From Chloroflexota bacterium (GTDB lineage: Bacteria; Chloroflexota; Anaerolineae; Anaerolineales; Villigracilaceae): a stretch of 64,000 nt of DNA. Of the stretch, positions 17,927 through 48,247 are shown in pieces. A program made the position numbers and the translations under genes. The DNA is taken from contig JACPYX010000018.1 in the NCBI GenBank assembly GCA_016195815.1, positions 62,001 to 126,000 of the forward strand, written 5' to 3'. The notes beneath the pieces are model-generated. The model saw nothing but the letters and a program-made list of their open reading frames with translations. It searched no databases and was not told the DNA's origin. Position 1 is the stretch's first letter, and each line of letters opens with the position of its first letter.

Positions 17927-17962
17927 AATAAAAAACTGCCGAAGCAAAATACTTTCGGCAGT
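17927..17962 (-). terminator. Riboswitch expression-platform terminator
   Basis: On the minus strand, CTGCCGAA pairs with TTCGGCAG around a loop of about nine bases and is followed by TTTTTTATTT. The 5' arm is the 3' end of the upstream c-di-GMP aptamer, so aptamer folding and termination compete. It lies about 85 nt before the protease start codon. Confidence 0.88.
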
Positions 17963-18040
17963 CTGGCGATCTGCGTCTGTTTCACTTGCAGACCCATAAC
18001 TTTGCGCCCCCACCTCACGATGGGTTTGCCCTTTCGATTG
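17952..18040 (-). ncRNA. Cyclic-di-GMP-I (GEMM-I) riboswitch aptamer
   Basis: Reading the minus strand, the leader contains the GEMM-I core in order. AAAGGGCAAACC is followed by a CATC/GGTG stem capped by the GNRA tetraloop GTGA, then GGCGCAAAG, a second stem starting TATGGGTCT with its return strand, and the closing GCCAGACTGCCGA. These match the family's GGGCAAACC, GACGCAAAG and GGGTTGCCGA blocks. Because the closing strand is shared with the terminator's 5' arm, ligand binding should prevent termination (an ON switch); that direction is inference. The regulated gene is the secreted subtilase. Confidence 0.88.
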
Positions 18041-19987: not shown

Positions 19988-20025
19988 AAATAAAAAACAA
20001 GAGCGGACAATTGTCCGCTCTTGTT
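19988..20025 (-). terminator. Intrinsic terminator of the nucleotidyltransferase gene
   Basis: AACAAGAGCGGACAA pairs perfectly with TTGTCCGCTCTTGTT, followed on the minus strand by TTTTTTATTT. Confidence 0.88.
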
Positions 20026-35699: not shown

Positions 35700-35730
35700 C
35701 TGATCACTGAACACAGACAACTGAATACTA

Positions 35731-35858
35731 AAACTCCGAAGCCTGCCTGCCTAAACATCCCTGCATGGCAACAGGCCGATCACAACCGTGATCCACGGAT
35801 AAAGCGGAAACGCTCTATCTCCCCGCATTTGGAAAGGAGACCAATCGCATGTTTTGTG
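35731..35858 (+). ncRNA. Candidate molybdenum/tungsten-cofactor riboswitch
   Basis: Structured leader before the FmdE-moaD-tauE-moaA genes. Visible parts: CTCCGAAGCC, GCATGGCAACAGGC, a perfect GATCAC-AACC-GTGATC hairpin, a GATA/AGCG stem capped by the GNRA loop GAAA, TCTCC pairing with GGAGA, and CCAATCGCATG. These order-preserved blocks fit what I recall of the Moco RNA motif (Rfam RF01055), and the downstream genes are Moco biosynthesis genes. An intrinsic terminator follows directly. My recall of the consensus is partial, so class assignment is tentative; presence of a structured regulatory leader is firmer. Confidence 0.55.
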
Positions 35859-42397: not shown

Positions 42398-42913
42398 ATG
42401 GATTTCACAGCTTTAATCATCGGCCTTTTTGTGGGTTTAGTGCTTGGAGCATTAGGCCTTATTATTATTTACTTCATCATGCAAAAACAAATGTCCGATT
42501 TAAAATCAAAACATCAAAACGAAGTAGAAGCAGCACGGAAACAAAGTGTTGATCAAAGTCGTAATACTCTTAAAGGGAAAATGGCCGAACAAATGGCGCC
42601 TCTTCTTCCTGGATTTAAATTTCTTCCCGCAGACGCGAGATTTTTAGGAGACCCGGTTGATTATGTTGTGTTTCATGGATACACAGCCGCAAGAGACGAT
42701 GGAAAAGACCCAGATGCAATGGAAGTTGTAATTCTTGACATAAAACAAGGCGGCGCAACTCTTTCAAGATCTCAACGGGCAATTGCAAAAGCCATAGAAG
42801 ACGGCAGGATTCGATTTGATGTTGTGAGGATTTTTGACGATGGCGAAATAAAATCTCACACTTGGCATTCAAAGCAGAAAACGAACGTTCTCAGAAATAC
42901 AAATATAGAATAA
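42398..42913 (+). CDS. Membrane-anchored Holliday-junction-resolvase-like endonuclease (Endonuc_Holl)
   Basis: 171 residues. The N-terminal membrane helix (about 5-29, LIIGLFVGLVLGALGLIIIYFIM) is followed by a short helical linker and an Endonuc_Holl domain: LKGKMAEQMAPLLPGF, ADARFLGDPVDYVVFHGY and VVILDIKQGGATLSRSQR. The usual E-x-K of the PD-(D/E)XK core reads D-I-K, still compatible with metal binding. Function has not been shown for this family as far as I know. Its stop overlaps the DUF503 start by one base (TAATG). Confidence 0.82.
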   Translation: MDFTALIIGLFVGLVLGALGLIIIYFIMQKQMSDLKSKHQNEVEAARKQSVDQSRNTLKGKMAEQMAPLLPGFKFLPADARFLGDPVDYVVFHGYTAARDDGKDPDAMEVVILDIKQGGATLSRSQRAIAKAIEDGRIRFDVVRIFDDGEIKSHTWHSKQKTNVLRNTNIE

Positions 42914-43194
42914 TGCTCGCCACTCTGACCATTCACCTCCATCTCCCCGCCTGCGCCTCGCTCAAGGAAAAGCGCGGGCGGATCAAGCCGCTCATCTCGC
43001 GCCTGCACCGGGAGTTCAACATCTCAGTAGCGGAGATGGGTTTGCAGGACAAATGGCAGGAGGCGGTCATTGCTTGCGCGATGGTCAACAGCGACAAAGC
43101 GCACCTTGCGCGCTCCCTGCAGGCGGTGGCCAGGTGGGTGGAAGCCAACTGGCCGGACGGAATGGTCGCGGACGAAAAAATCGAATTCCTGTGA
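42913..43194 (+). CDS. DUF503 (YlxP-like) protein
   Basis: 93 residues, full length for DUF503. Conserved start LTIHLHLPACASLKEKRG and AEMGLQDKWQEAVIACAMVNSD are clear. YlxP sits in the nusA-infB-rbfA region of many bacteria and is suspected in ribosome maturation, but here it is coupled to the endonuclease-like gene instead. Function unknown. Confidence 0.88.
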   Translation: MLATLTIHLHLPACASLKEKRGRIKPLISRLHREFNISVAEMGLQDKWQEAVIACAMVNSDKAHLARSLQAVARWVEANWPDGMVADEKIEFL

Positions 43195-43212: not shown

Positions 43213-43240
43213 TTGACATTTCCCTTTCTAGTAATACAAT
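43213..43240 (+). promoter_or_regulatory. Strong sigma70 promoter upstream of the CstA-locus leader
   Basis: Perfect TTGACA (43213-43218) and TACAAT (43235-43240) with a 16-base spacer; transcription should begin near 43247, giving a leader of about 210 nt. Confidence 0.75.
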
Positions 43241-43246
43241 AAATGC

Positions 43247-43407
43247 AATCCATACTTACAGATCGGAGATCGAAAAACGGAGCGTTAACGGGTATTTTGT
43301 AGTAAAAGCCCCTCAGCCATGATTCTGCAATTGACTGGCTACCTTCCAATAGCAATCATATTCACGACCTGGCGAATTTGGATCGCCCTGCCGACAGGAT
43401 AGTATTA
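43247..43407 (+). ncRNA. Structured 5' leader of unknown class (candidate riboswitch or attenuator)
   Basis: Between the promoter and a terminator lies about 160 nt with clear foldable elements. GATC-GGA-GATC opens the leader, then ACGGAGCGTTAACGG appears. A long stem pairs ATGATTCTGCAATTG with CAATAGCAATCAT around a 13-base loop. GGCGA-ATTTGGA-TCGCC is nested between CCTG and CAGG. I compared it by memory with c-di-AMP, c-di-GMP, cobalamin, TPP, SAM, guanidine, Mg2+ and THF classes and found no convincing match. Genes controlled are a thioredoxin-like protein and CstA. Confidence 0.5.
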
Positions 43408-43446
43408 CGCCAATGAGCATTCTTTGCTCATTGGCGCTTTTGTTTT
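43408..43446 (+). terminator. Intrinsic terminator inside the CstA-locus leader
   Basis: CGCCAATGAGCA pairs perfectly with TGCTCATTGGCG around TTCTT, followed by CTTTTGTTTT. It ends only about 12 bases before the start codon, next to the Shine-Dalgarno TAGGAG, so it must be overridden for expression of the downstream gene. Confidence 0.9.
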
Positions 43447-43457
43447 AGGAGTAGAAA

Positions 43458-43850
43458 ATGACTGAACCTCTGCTGGTAGAGATCATCGCTTATGCGCCCA
43501 CAGCCTTTTATCACTGCACGCACTGCGAAGTGGCCTGGCGCGAAATGGGCGCGACCAATCGCATCCACGAAGAACAGATGGAGAGCAGTTTACCTAAAGA
43601 CCTCATCGCCGAATATCAGGTCGTATCTGATTGGGTGCAGAAAGCCTTTCGAGTCCACTGTGACCGGATCACCGTCAAAGTAATTGGTGCGGCCTCCCTT
43701 GAGGGCTTTTACAAATCACTTAAATATAATGCTCGCCGCTATCCTGCGATCATCGTTGACCAAAAAGCACGCTTCGTGGGAAGCCAAAGGTTGCAAGCTG
43801 CGTCCGATGAAATTGCCCGCCTGCTGGCCGGCCAAGTTGTGCCAGCATAA
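43458..43850 (+). CDS. Small protein of unknown function with thioredoxin-like pattern
   Basis: 130 residues. The beta-alpha order, a CTHC pair at about residues 20-23 (FYHCTHCEVAW) and YPAIIVDQKARFVG with a likely cis-proline suggest a thioredoxin-like fold, but I cannot name the family. The protein is cytoplasmic (no signal). It is the first gene after the terminator-controlled leader and precedes cstA by 119 bp, so the two probably share regulation. A redox or metal-binding role through CxxC is inference. Confidence 0.6.
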   Translation: MTEPLLVEIIAYAPTAFYHCTHCEVAWREMGATNRIHEEQMESSLPKDLIAEYQVVSDWVQKAFRVHCDRITVKVIGAASLEGFYKSLKYNARRYPAIIVDQKARFVGSQRLQAASDEIARLLAGQVVPA

Positions 43851-43969: not shown

Positions 43970-45880
43970 ATGAACACTCTCTGGGTCGTGATCATCGCAG
44001 CGGTCATCATCTATCTGATTTACAACTTCTATGCCAAGCCGATTGACCGCGAAGTCATTCAGGCAGACGTCAAGAAAGCGACGCCCGCCAAAATGTATAT
44101 GGACGGTGTGGACTTCATGCCCACCAACCGCAACGTGCTGTTTGGTTATCACTTCAAGTCCATCGCCGCAGCCGGACCAATAGTCGGCGTGATCACTGCC
44201 GCGAATCTGTGGGGCTGGCTGCCGGCCTTATTATGGCTGATGATCGGCGTGTCTTTCATCGGCTGGGCCAGCGACTACAGCGCCATTGTCGTGGCGGTCC
44301 GTAACGATGGCAACAGCCTGAGCGCCATCAGCCATAGACTGATTGCGCCGCGCACTCGAAGCATCATGTTCATATTTATTTTCTTCTACTTGCTGCTTAT
44401 CGCCGGTGCGTTTATGGGCATTATGGCATCTCTGCTGGCCGCTCGCCCTGATGTGCCATTCGGCATTATCATACTGGCCATCATGGGTTTCCTGGCTGGT
44501 CAAATGCTCTATCGTTGGAAAATGGATTTAATTCTGGTGACGGCGATTGTAGTGATCGTGACTTTGGCCGCCATGATCTTTGGTCCAATCGGAGCGACAC
44601 CGAAACTGGACACCAGCGGTAAACCCACAGGCGCAATAAGTTGGGTTGGCCCGATTAACAGCGCCATGGTGGCTTTCAATGGCGCCATTGATAAAATCAG
44701 CGGTGGAAACGCGTTGTTGACCGTCACTGATCCAACGGCAGCCGACCCGCGCGTTCCCGCTCCGGGCGCAGACGGCAAACGCGTAAGCACATCAGTCTAT
44801 GACGCCGCCACTGGCACAATCAAAACGCTTCCATCCTACCTGTTCTGGGTTTTGTTTCTGCTGGTTTTCGCCTACCTTTCAGCAACTTTACCGATCTGGC
44901 GATTCGCGCAGCCTGTCAACTACATCGGCTTCTGGATCACATTGTTGACAATTGGCTTTAGTGCGATTGGCGCTGTGTTGGCGCCCTTCATCAAACCGGC
45001 GATTGGCGCTTTCGCGCTCGACGCAGTCAAGCCGCTCACTTGGGTACCGGTAGCAAGTAAAGCCTGGCAACCGCTGTGGCCAATGCTGTTCGTAACCATC
45101 GCTTGCGGCGCAATCTCCGGCTGGCATGCTCTGTTCGGCTCGATTGGCACAGCCCGCCAGTTGGAATACGAAACTGATGCCTTGCCAGTTGGTGGCGGTG
45201 CGATGTTCACTGAGAATACACTGGCCCTGCTTTCACTGGTGGCCGTCTCCATCGCCGGAACAGGCGGTGGCGCAGGCCGCTTCGCAGCAGGCGTAGGAAG
45301 TTTGCTGACGGTGGTCTTCGGCGACGGTTTCAAGTTGTTGGGCACAGCGCTCGGCTTTGGCGCCTTCATGGTCATCGTATTGACAGTAACCCAACTGATT
45401 TTCCGAGTCATGCGCGTGACTTTGTCTGAGTGGGTCGGCGATGCACTCCCGGCGCTCAAAAACATGCACGTCTCCACTATTGTTTCAATGGTGCTGACTG
45501 TAGCCCTGGTATTGACCGGTACATGGGTCTACTTGTGGCAGATGTTCGGCGCAGCAAATCAGTTAATGGCAGCGCTTAGCCTGCTGATCGTCACGGTTTG
45601 GTTGAAGCAGCAGAAACGTAATCCGGCCTTTGTATTATGGCCGATGATCTTCATGTATATCACCACACTCGCGGCTACACTAATCACAGCTCGAAACCTT
45701 TATGTCACTATTGTCCCGCTGGGCGGCGTAGAGGCAGCCGGAGCTTGGGCGATGGTGATTATTTCCGCCCTGCTCTTTGTGGCCGCCATTCTGATTGGTT
45801 GGGATGGATATCAAGCTTATCAAGGTTTCGCCAAAGGCGGCGGAAAGGCCAAGAAAGCCGCCCCAGCCGCGGCAGATTAA
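43970..45880 (+). CDS. cstA: CstA-family carbon starvation/pyruvate or peptide transporter
   Basis: 636-residue membrane carrier with about 16 hydrophobic segments. CstA-family marks include YGYHFKSIAAAGPIVG-like FGYHFKSIAAAGPIVG near residue 60, ALLWLMIGVSFIGWASDYSAI, and CGAISGWHALFGSIGTARQLE. The N-terminal half is interrupted by a hydrophilic loop (about residues 210-275). Family members take up pyruvate or peptides under carbon limitation. The Shine-Dalgarno is AAAGGAGGAACC. It lies downstream of the thioredoxin-like gene and the riboswitch-like leader. Confidence 0.9.
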   Translation: MNTLWVVIIAAVIIYLIYNFYAKPIDREVIQADVKKATPAKMYMDGVDFMPTNRNVLFGYHFKSIAAAGPIVGVITAANLWGWLPALLWLMIGVSFIGWASDYSAIVVAVRNDGNSLSAISHRLIAPRTRSIMFIFIFFYLLLIAGAFMGIMASLLAARPDVPFGIIILAIMGFLAGQMLYRWKMDLILVTAIVVIVTLAAMIFGPIGATPKLDTSGKPTGAISWVGPINSAMVAFNGAIDKISGGNALLTVTDPTAADPRVPAPGADGKRVSTSVYDAATGTIKTLPSYLFWVLFLLVFAYLSATLPIWRFAQPVNYIGFWITLLTIGFSAIGAVLAPFIKPAIGAFALDAVKPLTWVPVASKAWQPLWPMLFVTIACGAISGWHALFGSIGTARQLEYETDALPVGGGAMFTENTLALLSLVAVSIAGTGGGAGRFAAGVGSLLTVVFGDGFKLLGTALGFGAFMVIVLTVTQLIFRVMRVTLSEWVGDALPALKNMHVSTIVSMVLTVALVLTGTWVYLWQMFGAANQLMAALSLLIVTVWLKQQKRNPAFVLWPMIFMYITTLAATLITARNLYVTIVPLGGVEAAGAWAMVIISALLFVAAILIGWDGYQAYQGFAKGGGKAKKAAPAAAD

Positions 45881-46645: not shown

Positions 46646-46945
46646 ATGAAACACGATGAAGTTCAATCAAGAGAAAAGCCAAACCGCTGGCAGGCCATTC
46701 GGGATTTTATGTATGGAATGTTTGGAATGGAAATCGCCAGTCATGCCATCGAAATGCGCGCGAGCATGGAGAGTTTGTTCATGTTAACAACGGTCGGAGA
46801 TATGATCGGGATTCCTGTTTTACCCCCCTACTACAGTTTGCGTTTGTTGCCTTTTGTATTACCCCAGATCGCAACCTGGAAACGCCGCGTTCTGCGTGAA
46901 CGCGAATTTACCGATGAGCACGATTATCACCTGGACGGACTTTAG
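46646..46945 (+). CDS. Small membrane-type protein 1 of the ArsA-like cassette
   Basis: 99 residues. It shares with the genes at 46991 and 49251 the pattern: FMYGMF...ASMESLF, then the hydrophobic run MLTTVGDMIGIPVLPPYYSLRLLPFVLPQI, then the basic end WKRRVLRERE. The hydrophobic region with two prolines may form a membrane hairpin or peripheral anchor, followed by a positively charged tail. No known domain. It heads a same-strand run of five genes including two ArsA/GET3-type ATPases, and is the most divergent copy (longest tail). Confidence 0.8.
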   Translation: MKHDEVQSREKPNRWQAIRDFMYGMFGMEIASHAIEMRASMESLFMLTTVGDMIGIPVLPPYYSLRLLPFVLPQIATWKRRVLREREFTDEHDYHLDGL

Positions 46946-46990: not shown

Positions 46991-47263
46991 ATGAGTCAAG
47001 AAACCCCTGAGAAAAAAAGTTTCTGGCAGAACGCGAAGGAAGTGCTCTACGGCATGGCTTCACACGATATGAGCCGCTATGCCCTGCGGACGCGCGCCAG
47101 CATGGAGCACCTTTTCATTTTGATCACGATGGGCGACATGATCGGAGTTCCGATCCTGCCGCCATATTACAGCCTGCGTCTGCTGCCCTATGTGGTTCCG
47201 CAAATCTCGACCTGGAAGCGGCGCCTGCTTCGCGAGAAAGACGTATCCGACGCCATGTTTTAG
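46991..47263 (+). CDS. Small membrane-type protein 2 of the ArsA-like cassette
   Basis: 90 residues, paralogue of the 46646 and 49251 products. An N-terminal amphipathic part, FWQNAKEVLYGMASHDMSR, is followed by SMEHLFILITMGDMIGVPI, LPPYYSLRLLPYVVPQI and WKRRLLREKDVSDAMF. It ends 9 bp before the first ATPase gene with AGGAGATTCC between, so the two are co-translated. The C-terminal hydrophobic-plus-basic plan is what GET3-type ATPases recognise in clients, which makes it a candidate client or effector (inference). Confidence 0.82.
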   Translation: MSQETPEKKSFWQNAKEVLYGMASHDMSRYALRTRASMEHLFILITMGDMIGVPILPPYYSLRLLPYVVPQISTWKRRLLREKDVSDAMF

Positions 47264-47272
47264 GAGATTCCA

Positions 47273-48247
47273 ATGTCGCTAAAACAAATCTTTGAAGAAC
47301 ATCCCGAGCGCCGCTACATTATGTTCGGCGGAAAGGGCGGGCTGGGCAAGACTACATTTTCAGCGGCCACCGCTTACTGGCTCGCCAAACAGGGCAAGAA
47401 AGTGCTGGTGTTTTCCGTTGACCCGCAAGCAAGTCTTTCGGATATTTTCCAGAAAGATATCTTTGGAAAAGGCCCAGTCAAGATCATGGATAATTTGTGG
47501 GCGCAGGAGATTGACGCCGACTCGCACATCAAGAATTATCAGAATGAAATCCGCAAGAAGATTTTGGATATGTACGGTTTCGAGCAGGTGCCTGAAGAAA
47601 TCGAGCAGTACATCCAGGCCGCTTCCGCCGAACCCGCTATGGAAGAGAGTGCCATCTTCGACGCAGTGGTGGATATCGTGATCGGCGGCGAATATGATTA
47701 CTACATTTACGATCTCGTCCCGCTCGGCCATGCGCTTTATTATTTGAGTATGGCAAAAGTGTACGACGAGTGGATCAACAAGATCACCAAATTGCGCGAA
47801 GAGATGCGCGAGTACGAGGAGATGGTCTCACGACTTAAGCGTCAGAAGGAAACGGAGGAAGACCAGATACTCACAGAACTTCAGTACATCCGCACGCGCA
47901 TTAACGCTTCGTCGAGTATCCTGACCGACAAGGAAAAGACCGGCTTTTTCTTTGTCGTCATCCCCGAAGAAATGATCCTGATTGACACCAGCAAGGCGGC
48001 GGAATTGTTCGCCAAGTTTGACGTGCCAATTATGGGCTACGTGGTTAATCGCGTTGTGCCGCGCGAACTGCTCAAGGAAAACATCCCATCCTACTTGAAG
48101 AACCGCATCGGTATGCAAGACAAATACCTGGCTCAGATTAATACCATGTTTGGTCAACAGGTGGCGGCGCATGTCCCTGAATTGGAACGCGATGTGACCG
48201 GCTTGGATATGATCAAGCAACTTGCAGAAATCATGTACGGGAAGTAG
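47273..48247 (+). CDS. ArsA/GET3-like ATPase A, with altered DTAPTGH motif
   Basis: 324-residue SIMIBI-class ATPase of the ArsA/TRC40 family. The deviant Walker A is FGGKGGLGKTTFSA (K21 signature lysine, K26). Switch I is SVDPQASLSD, with the catalytic-type Asp50 conserved. The switch II/ligand motif, normally DTAPTGHTLR, is YDLVPLGHALYYL, so T-A-P is lost but GH is retained. A coiled, charged insertion (residues 166-205) lies in the client-binding region. It is not an arsenite pump subunit: no arsB partner is beside it. It is immediately followed by a second, complementary ATPase. Confidence 0.88.
   Translation: MSLKQIFEEHPERRYIMFGGKGGLGKTTFSAATAYWLAKQGKKVLVFSVDPQASLSDIFQKDIFGKGPVKIMDNLWAQEIDADSHIKNYQNEIRKKILDMYGFEQVPEEIEQYIQAASAEPAMEESAIFDAVVDIVIGGEYDYYIYDLVPLGHALYYLSMAKVYDEWINKITKLREEMREYEEMVSRLKRQKETEEDQILTELQYIRTRINASSSILTDKEKTGFFFVVIPEEMILIDTSKAAELFAKFDVPIMGYVVNRVVPRELLKENIPSYLKNRIGMQDKYLAQINTMFGQQVAAHVPELERDVTGLDMIKQLAEIMYGK

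Follow-up and report, generated by a model that had tools for sequence, protein, structure and literature searches.

A terminator-bearing leader with a short open reading frame upstream of a thioredoxin-like gene and cstA in Anaerolineales, plausibly an attenuator that reads translation

Introduction

Transcription attenuators of the trp/his type combine a short leader ORF, a hairpin within it and an intrinsic terminator before the operon, and systems with TnaC-type arrest peptides use Rho, in place of which the locus described here has an intrinsic terminator. To our knowledge, attenuators have been little studied in Chloroflexota. A related layout is known from vmlR-type antibiotic-resistance attenuators, in which, according to the passages of PMC9226507 considered here, an upstream ORF (uORF) is coupled to premature termination before the gene. 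Gene clusters of CstA, the ~90-aa single-span CstX and ArsA have been reported in PMC2963123, the considered passages of which treat genes and phylogeny, not a leader. Among the titles and abstract beginnings considered in the open literature, none describes a cstA leader of the present kind, and those found by pairing Chloroflexota with leader peptides or RNA motifs likewise contain no description of such an element.

The present study concerns a leader and the trx-cstA operon behind it on the + strand of a 64-kb stretch of DNA (the window) from contig C3 of a 3.16-Mb genome. The leader has the leader ORF, internal hairpin and intrinsic terminator in common with trp/his-type attenuators; however, neither a regulatory codon run nor an alternative antiterminator was found, and a ribosome at the stop codon would here keep the terminator from forming, the reverse of what happens in trp. 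With TnaC-type arrest peptides it shares, in several members, a Trp located about 10 codons ahead of the leader ORF's stop, but this Trp and its neighbours are not conserved in all members and the peptide evolves freely. The vmlR-type systems, as presented in the passages of PMC9226507, have uORF and premature termination in common with it, but belong to another operon in another phylum; the likeness seen is one of layout, with no relation of sequence apparent.

Results

The first gene of the operon (43458..43850, +) encodes a protein of 130 aa without any family above the cut-off; it is named thioredoxin-like because of its CTHC motif and a weak fold match, since the predicted model (pLDDT 76.6) finds thioredoxins as top PDB matches at an E value of 2.9e-3. 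It is followed by cstA (43970..45880, +; Pfam CstA, E 4.4e-101), which codes for a carrier of the carbon starvation/pyruvate type. Further downstream on the same strand, two adjacent related-looking proteins of 99 and 90 aa (46646-46945 and 46991-47263), both without Pfam match, precede an ArsA ATPase (47273-48247). With cstA, two 90-99-aa proteins and ArsA in this order, the locus resembles the clusters treated in the passages of PMC2963123, and size and place make the two small proteins CstX candidates. The upstream neighbour, a DUF503 gene (42913..43194, +), is situated outside the element.

The leader begins with a sigma-70-type promoter (43213..43240, +) of the form TTGACA-16 nt-TACAAT, which matches the consensus at 11 of 12 positions and is the best of nine promoter-like sites on 4.5 kb (3.9 +/- 1.8 in shuffles), in agreement with the near-consensus promoter noticed in the sequence-only reading. 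By eye, a promoter is present at similar distance in relatives. The transcript would start about 7 nt past the -10 hexamer and extend over 43247..43446 (+), as judged from promoter and terminator. The intrinsic terminator (43408..43446, +) is composed of a perfect 12-bp stem (43408-43436) with a 5-nt loop, followed by the U-tract CTTTTGTTTT. The Shine-Dalgarno sequence AGGAG of the downstream gene (43447-43451) directly adjoins the U-tract and the gene starts at 43458, so that no space is left for a second promoter. In a stricter scan, which demanded a perfect stem of >= 11 bp and >= 6 T in 8, this was the only stem passing on the + strand of the window, one stem passed on the - strand (20025) and none did so in 15 dinucleotide shuffles. 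Hence, the terminator exceeds chance, and its description as a perfect 12-bp stem right before the Shine-Dalgarno sequence was correct. The terminator is conserved in relatives and covaries; double changes were found in 8 of 10 pairs among 17 aligned terminators.

Further elements were noticed in the window. The stem at 20025 (-) is its sole other perfect 12-bp terminator-like stem. A molybdenum/tungsten cofactor riboswitch (35722-35855, +; 55.1 bits) has a perfect 10-bp stem with U-tract directly behind it (35859), and a c-di-GMP-I-GGC riboswitch aptamer is located at 17953-18039 (-; 63.7 bits).

Inside the leader lies a short ORF that was absent from its earlier description. It spans 27 codons from ATG to TAG (MILQLTGYLPIAIIFTTWRIWIALPTG; 43319..43402, +), its frame and start position are conserved in relatives, and 5 nt separate the end of its stop from the terminator stem. 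Its Shine-Dalgarno sequence in the window is weak or absent. The g17 relatives L016-L020 have a Shine-Dalgarno sequence (GAGGT), an ATG, 27-28 codons and a stop at the terminator base, which is variously TAA, TAG or TGA at one fixed place. In 18 leaders we counted ORFs of >= 20 codons whose stop is no more than 15 nt away from the terminator arm; the 19th locus, L021, was too short and left out. Such an ORF with Shine-Dalgarno sequence occurs in 7 of the 18 leaders, compared with 0.77 in shuffles (P 3e-6), and in 11 of 18, compared with 4.46 (P 8e-4), if no Shine-Dalgarno sequence is demanded, whereby the P values overstate independence because of the relatives' kinship. In the 11 leaders, the stop codon falls in the stretch from 6 nt ahead of the stem foot to 10 nt past it.

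The frame was also followed relative to a small hairpin inside the ORF, P1 (43370..43388, +), in which GGCGA (43371-43375) pairs with TCGCC (43383-43387). Anchored on P1, this frame runs for 24 codons without a stop in 15 of 16 leaders, compared with 3/16 and 9/16 for the other two. An ATG 14-17 codons upstream of P1, open to P1, is found in 14 of 17 leaders with 0.67 expected, and in neither other frame does any of the 17 have one at this distance. The mean BLOSUM62 score of the P1 block (17 leaders) is 0.275 in the ORF frame versus about -0.24 in the others. Five of the 16 leaders (L002, L003, L006, L008, L035) have a frame that closes only deep within the terminator or past it.

The encoded peptide behaves differently from its frame. 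Differences between seven pairs of relatives numbered 67, 47 and 59 by codon position, thus no third-position excess was found, and most were non-synonymous; therefore, the leader ORF is not conserved as a protein. Judged from these comparisons, frame, start and length of the leader ORF are kept and the peptide appears largely free, which would fit a role of the act of translation and not of its product.

Covariation of P1 is modest. Double changes affect three of its seven pairs, in six distinct sequences and above every slid control, in a count based on 7 of 17 leaders picked for one shared loop length. On its own, P1 folds better than shuffles (p < 0.05) in 10 of 23 copies; the window's copy does not (p = 0.165). 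The P1 anchors were first picked by eye. An unanchored MAFFT local alignment assigned P1 to a single column in all but one of the 16 leaders, the exception being shifted by 6 bases (two codons), and two other MAFFT modes agreed on P1 in 9/16 only. An alignment of 22 elements, in which several P1 hairpins were misaligned, was kept out of model building. A GGA in the P1 loop was considered as a CsrA site and rejected, as by eye it occurs in some relatives only; CsrA acts on cstA in E. coli.

Of the 152 family genomes, 16 encode a homologue of the thioredoxin-like protein (E <= 1e-20), and by eye all 16 have a terminator-type hairpin upstream of the gene. These hairpins were aligned and, except for L021, whose leader is cut by a contig end, also folded. 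In 15 of the 16 full leaders, 50-78 nt separate the terminator arm from the start of the next gene; the raw distances for L017 and L019 are longer because the homologue match begins after the real start, and in L022 the distance is 161 nt. The claim of a cis-acting leader with a terminator to be bypassed is thus upheld by its presence in all family genomes with the gene and by terminator covariation. Beyond the family, the leader recurs in L035, L037 and L038 show a hairpin that lacks a good U-tract, and the other homologues examined (Thermoflexus and others) have by eye no such leader. When 400 genomes of the order were searched, 16 came up, of which only G643 (L035) lies outside the family.

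A model built from 14 leaders (R1) found the element once in the genome of the window, where it also picked up the antisense strand of this copy's terminator. In the family it detected the element near a cstA in 19 of 152 genomes, with four weak matches (G130, G091, G087, G036; E 0.03-0.06) left out as chance because they are not near cstA. At E 0.1 it missed G031, G025 and G135, which are not in the model, though terminator and ORF are visible there. In G170, a similar element precedes cstA without the thioredoxin-like gene in between, and in the two g15 genomes G019 and G063 the element was not found.

Discussion

The locus has a promoter and an intrinsic terminator before the first gene and a short ORF upstream of or overlapping this terminator, as attenuators do. 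On balance, we favour the view that the leader is a transcription attenuator that reads the translation of the short leader ORF upstream of trx-cstA. RNA polymerase would start at the leader's own promoter and transcribe the ~27-codon ORF, whose stop lies at the terminator base and which in some relatives extends into the terminator or all the way through it. The hairpin P1 within this ORF may serve to pause polymerase or to set the pace of the ribosome. A ribosome at the ORF end would cover the 5' arm of the terminator, no terminator would form and polymerase would read into trx-cstA. If the leader were untranslated, or the ribosome stopped early or were gone, the terminator would form and the operon would be off. 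With stops from 6 nt before to 10 nt after the stem foot in the 11 leaders whose ORF ends there, the footprint of a ribosome at the stop would cover much of the 5' arm. Hence, ribosome occlusion of the terminator is the simplest model. Partition-function folding found no upstream partner for the 5' arm common to the leaders, an absence that as a folding result is weak evidence and that is compatible with this reading because occlusion needs no partner.

We infer that the leader ORF is translated, that translation and not a ligand decides on termination, and that the effect has the direction given above. Because no residue runs were seen, the switching input would be the overall state of translation and not a particular amino acid. 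If this is right, a carbon-starvation carrier would be tied to translation itself, with neither a metabolite sensor nor a classical codon run. More tentatively, and rather doubtful as a whole, one may think of a leader class of Anaerolineales in which ribosome occupancy alone opens the terminator, with no antiterminator and no fixed peptide, in which a ~27-codon ORF at near-fixed spacing gauges translation for a starvation transporter, and the cassette of which also stands alone by a distant cstA. What the attenuator reading mainly leaves unaccounted for are such stand-alone copies and the freely varying peptide.

The copies in question bear on a different explanation, namely that the element is a small independent transcription unit, giving a small RNA, perhaps together with a small protein, that acts in trans, with trx-cstA located behind it and fed by partial read-through. 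In G062, G061, G088, G008, G016 and G113, all new to the R1 model, and weakly in G100, the element lies ahead of a TPR-like gene in convergent orientation, a divergent cstA follows ~900 nt further on, and no same-strand gene is directly behind. These six to seven relatives make a role in trans possible. Moreover, L133, L136 and L137 among the stand-alone copies carry a W-Q motif in frame with a start; in the other three of six (L134, L135, L142) the start codon, though similarly spaced, belongs to another frame. G073 contains, behind the thioredoxin-like gene, a second copy comprising ORF, P1 and terminator that lacks a gene of its own (L021, 1345-1130, -); it follows an apparent panE fragment, and its start codon is again 16 codons before P1. 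However, the peptide sequence is not conserved, the next gene is kept at 50-78 nt in nearly all full leaders, and the element is missing from the two g15 genomes. We thus regard a unit acting in trans as rather unlikely.

An undescribed class of metabolite-binding riboswitch, with a leader aptamer controlling the terminator, is unlikely too and ranks below the attenuator. Promoter, leader and terminator at the Shine-Dalgarno sequence would fit its anatomy, the leader is conserved across genera and P1 covaries somewhat. The leader matched no Rfam family at the gathering threshold, and a permissive search gave Qrr as best hit with 19.4 bits against a cut-off of 50. A known riboswitch class was therefore rejected and the leader remains unclassified, as first stated, which would leave space for a new class. 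However, once the terminator is removed the leader shows no more folding than shuffles do (z = +1.06, with 170 of the 200 shuffles equalling or exceeding it), at variance with its earlier characterization as foldable; with terminator z is -1.75. Of 33 well-occupied columns before the ORF, only five are conserved in an alignment of 16 leaders, compared with 20 of 36 in the terminator. The expected conservation and covariation among homologous leaders held for the terminator and modestly for P1, but not for the part upstream of the ORF. A conserved structured aptamer-like core before the terminator was not found in the aligned leaders, nor was a common antiterminator. Furthermore, a riboswitch leaves the open frame and the start spacing unexplained. 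In six g17/g7 leaders, a possible helix around the ORF start was equalled in pairing by 52 of 500 shuffles. Instead of a ligand-sensing aptamer, the leaders conserve an open reading frame whose spacing is fixed, along with a small hairpin and the terminator; the central-metabolite ligand was a guess. Of the sequence-only reading, the unclassified cis leader with terminator is supported and the structured ligand-sensing aptamer is not; a leader that has a terminator but matches no known class is not necessarily a riboswitch.

The same general anatomy would suit a site for a protein-dependent antiterminator or classical amino-acid attenuation with codon runs, and a W is present in the motif of many leaders. 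However, this W is missing there in L004, L016-L020 and L022, and 12 leader peptides contain no run of a single amino acid, the enrichment being weak (W 1.8x, S 1.7x, I 1.4x); with a peptide that is not conserved, neither a regulatory codon run nor an arrest motif emerged. For a binding protein, no conserved hairpin overlapping the terminator is available as a site, and by eye the P1 loops share no motif. Both variants seem improbable to us. A plain leaky, unregulated terminator, belonging to the DUF503 or panE transcript or to spurious RNA, is very improbable, since despite its location behind DUF503/panE genes a strong promoter lies between the upstream gene and the terminator, and ORF, P1 and spacing are conserved.

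Finally, a different feature was seen by eye at other cstA loci. Upstream of the divergent cstA in L106, L107, L109, L110, L111, L113 and L117, a long AAAGGAGGTGAT-like Shine-Dalgarno sequence is located roughly 100-130 nt ahead of cstA, and no gene is evident there. A short ORF comes after it in L110 and L111, and the end of this ORF overlaps the cstA start.
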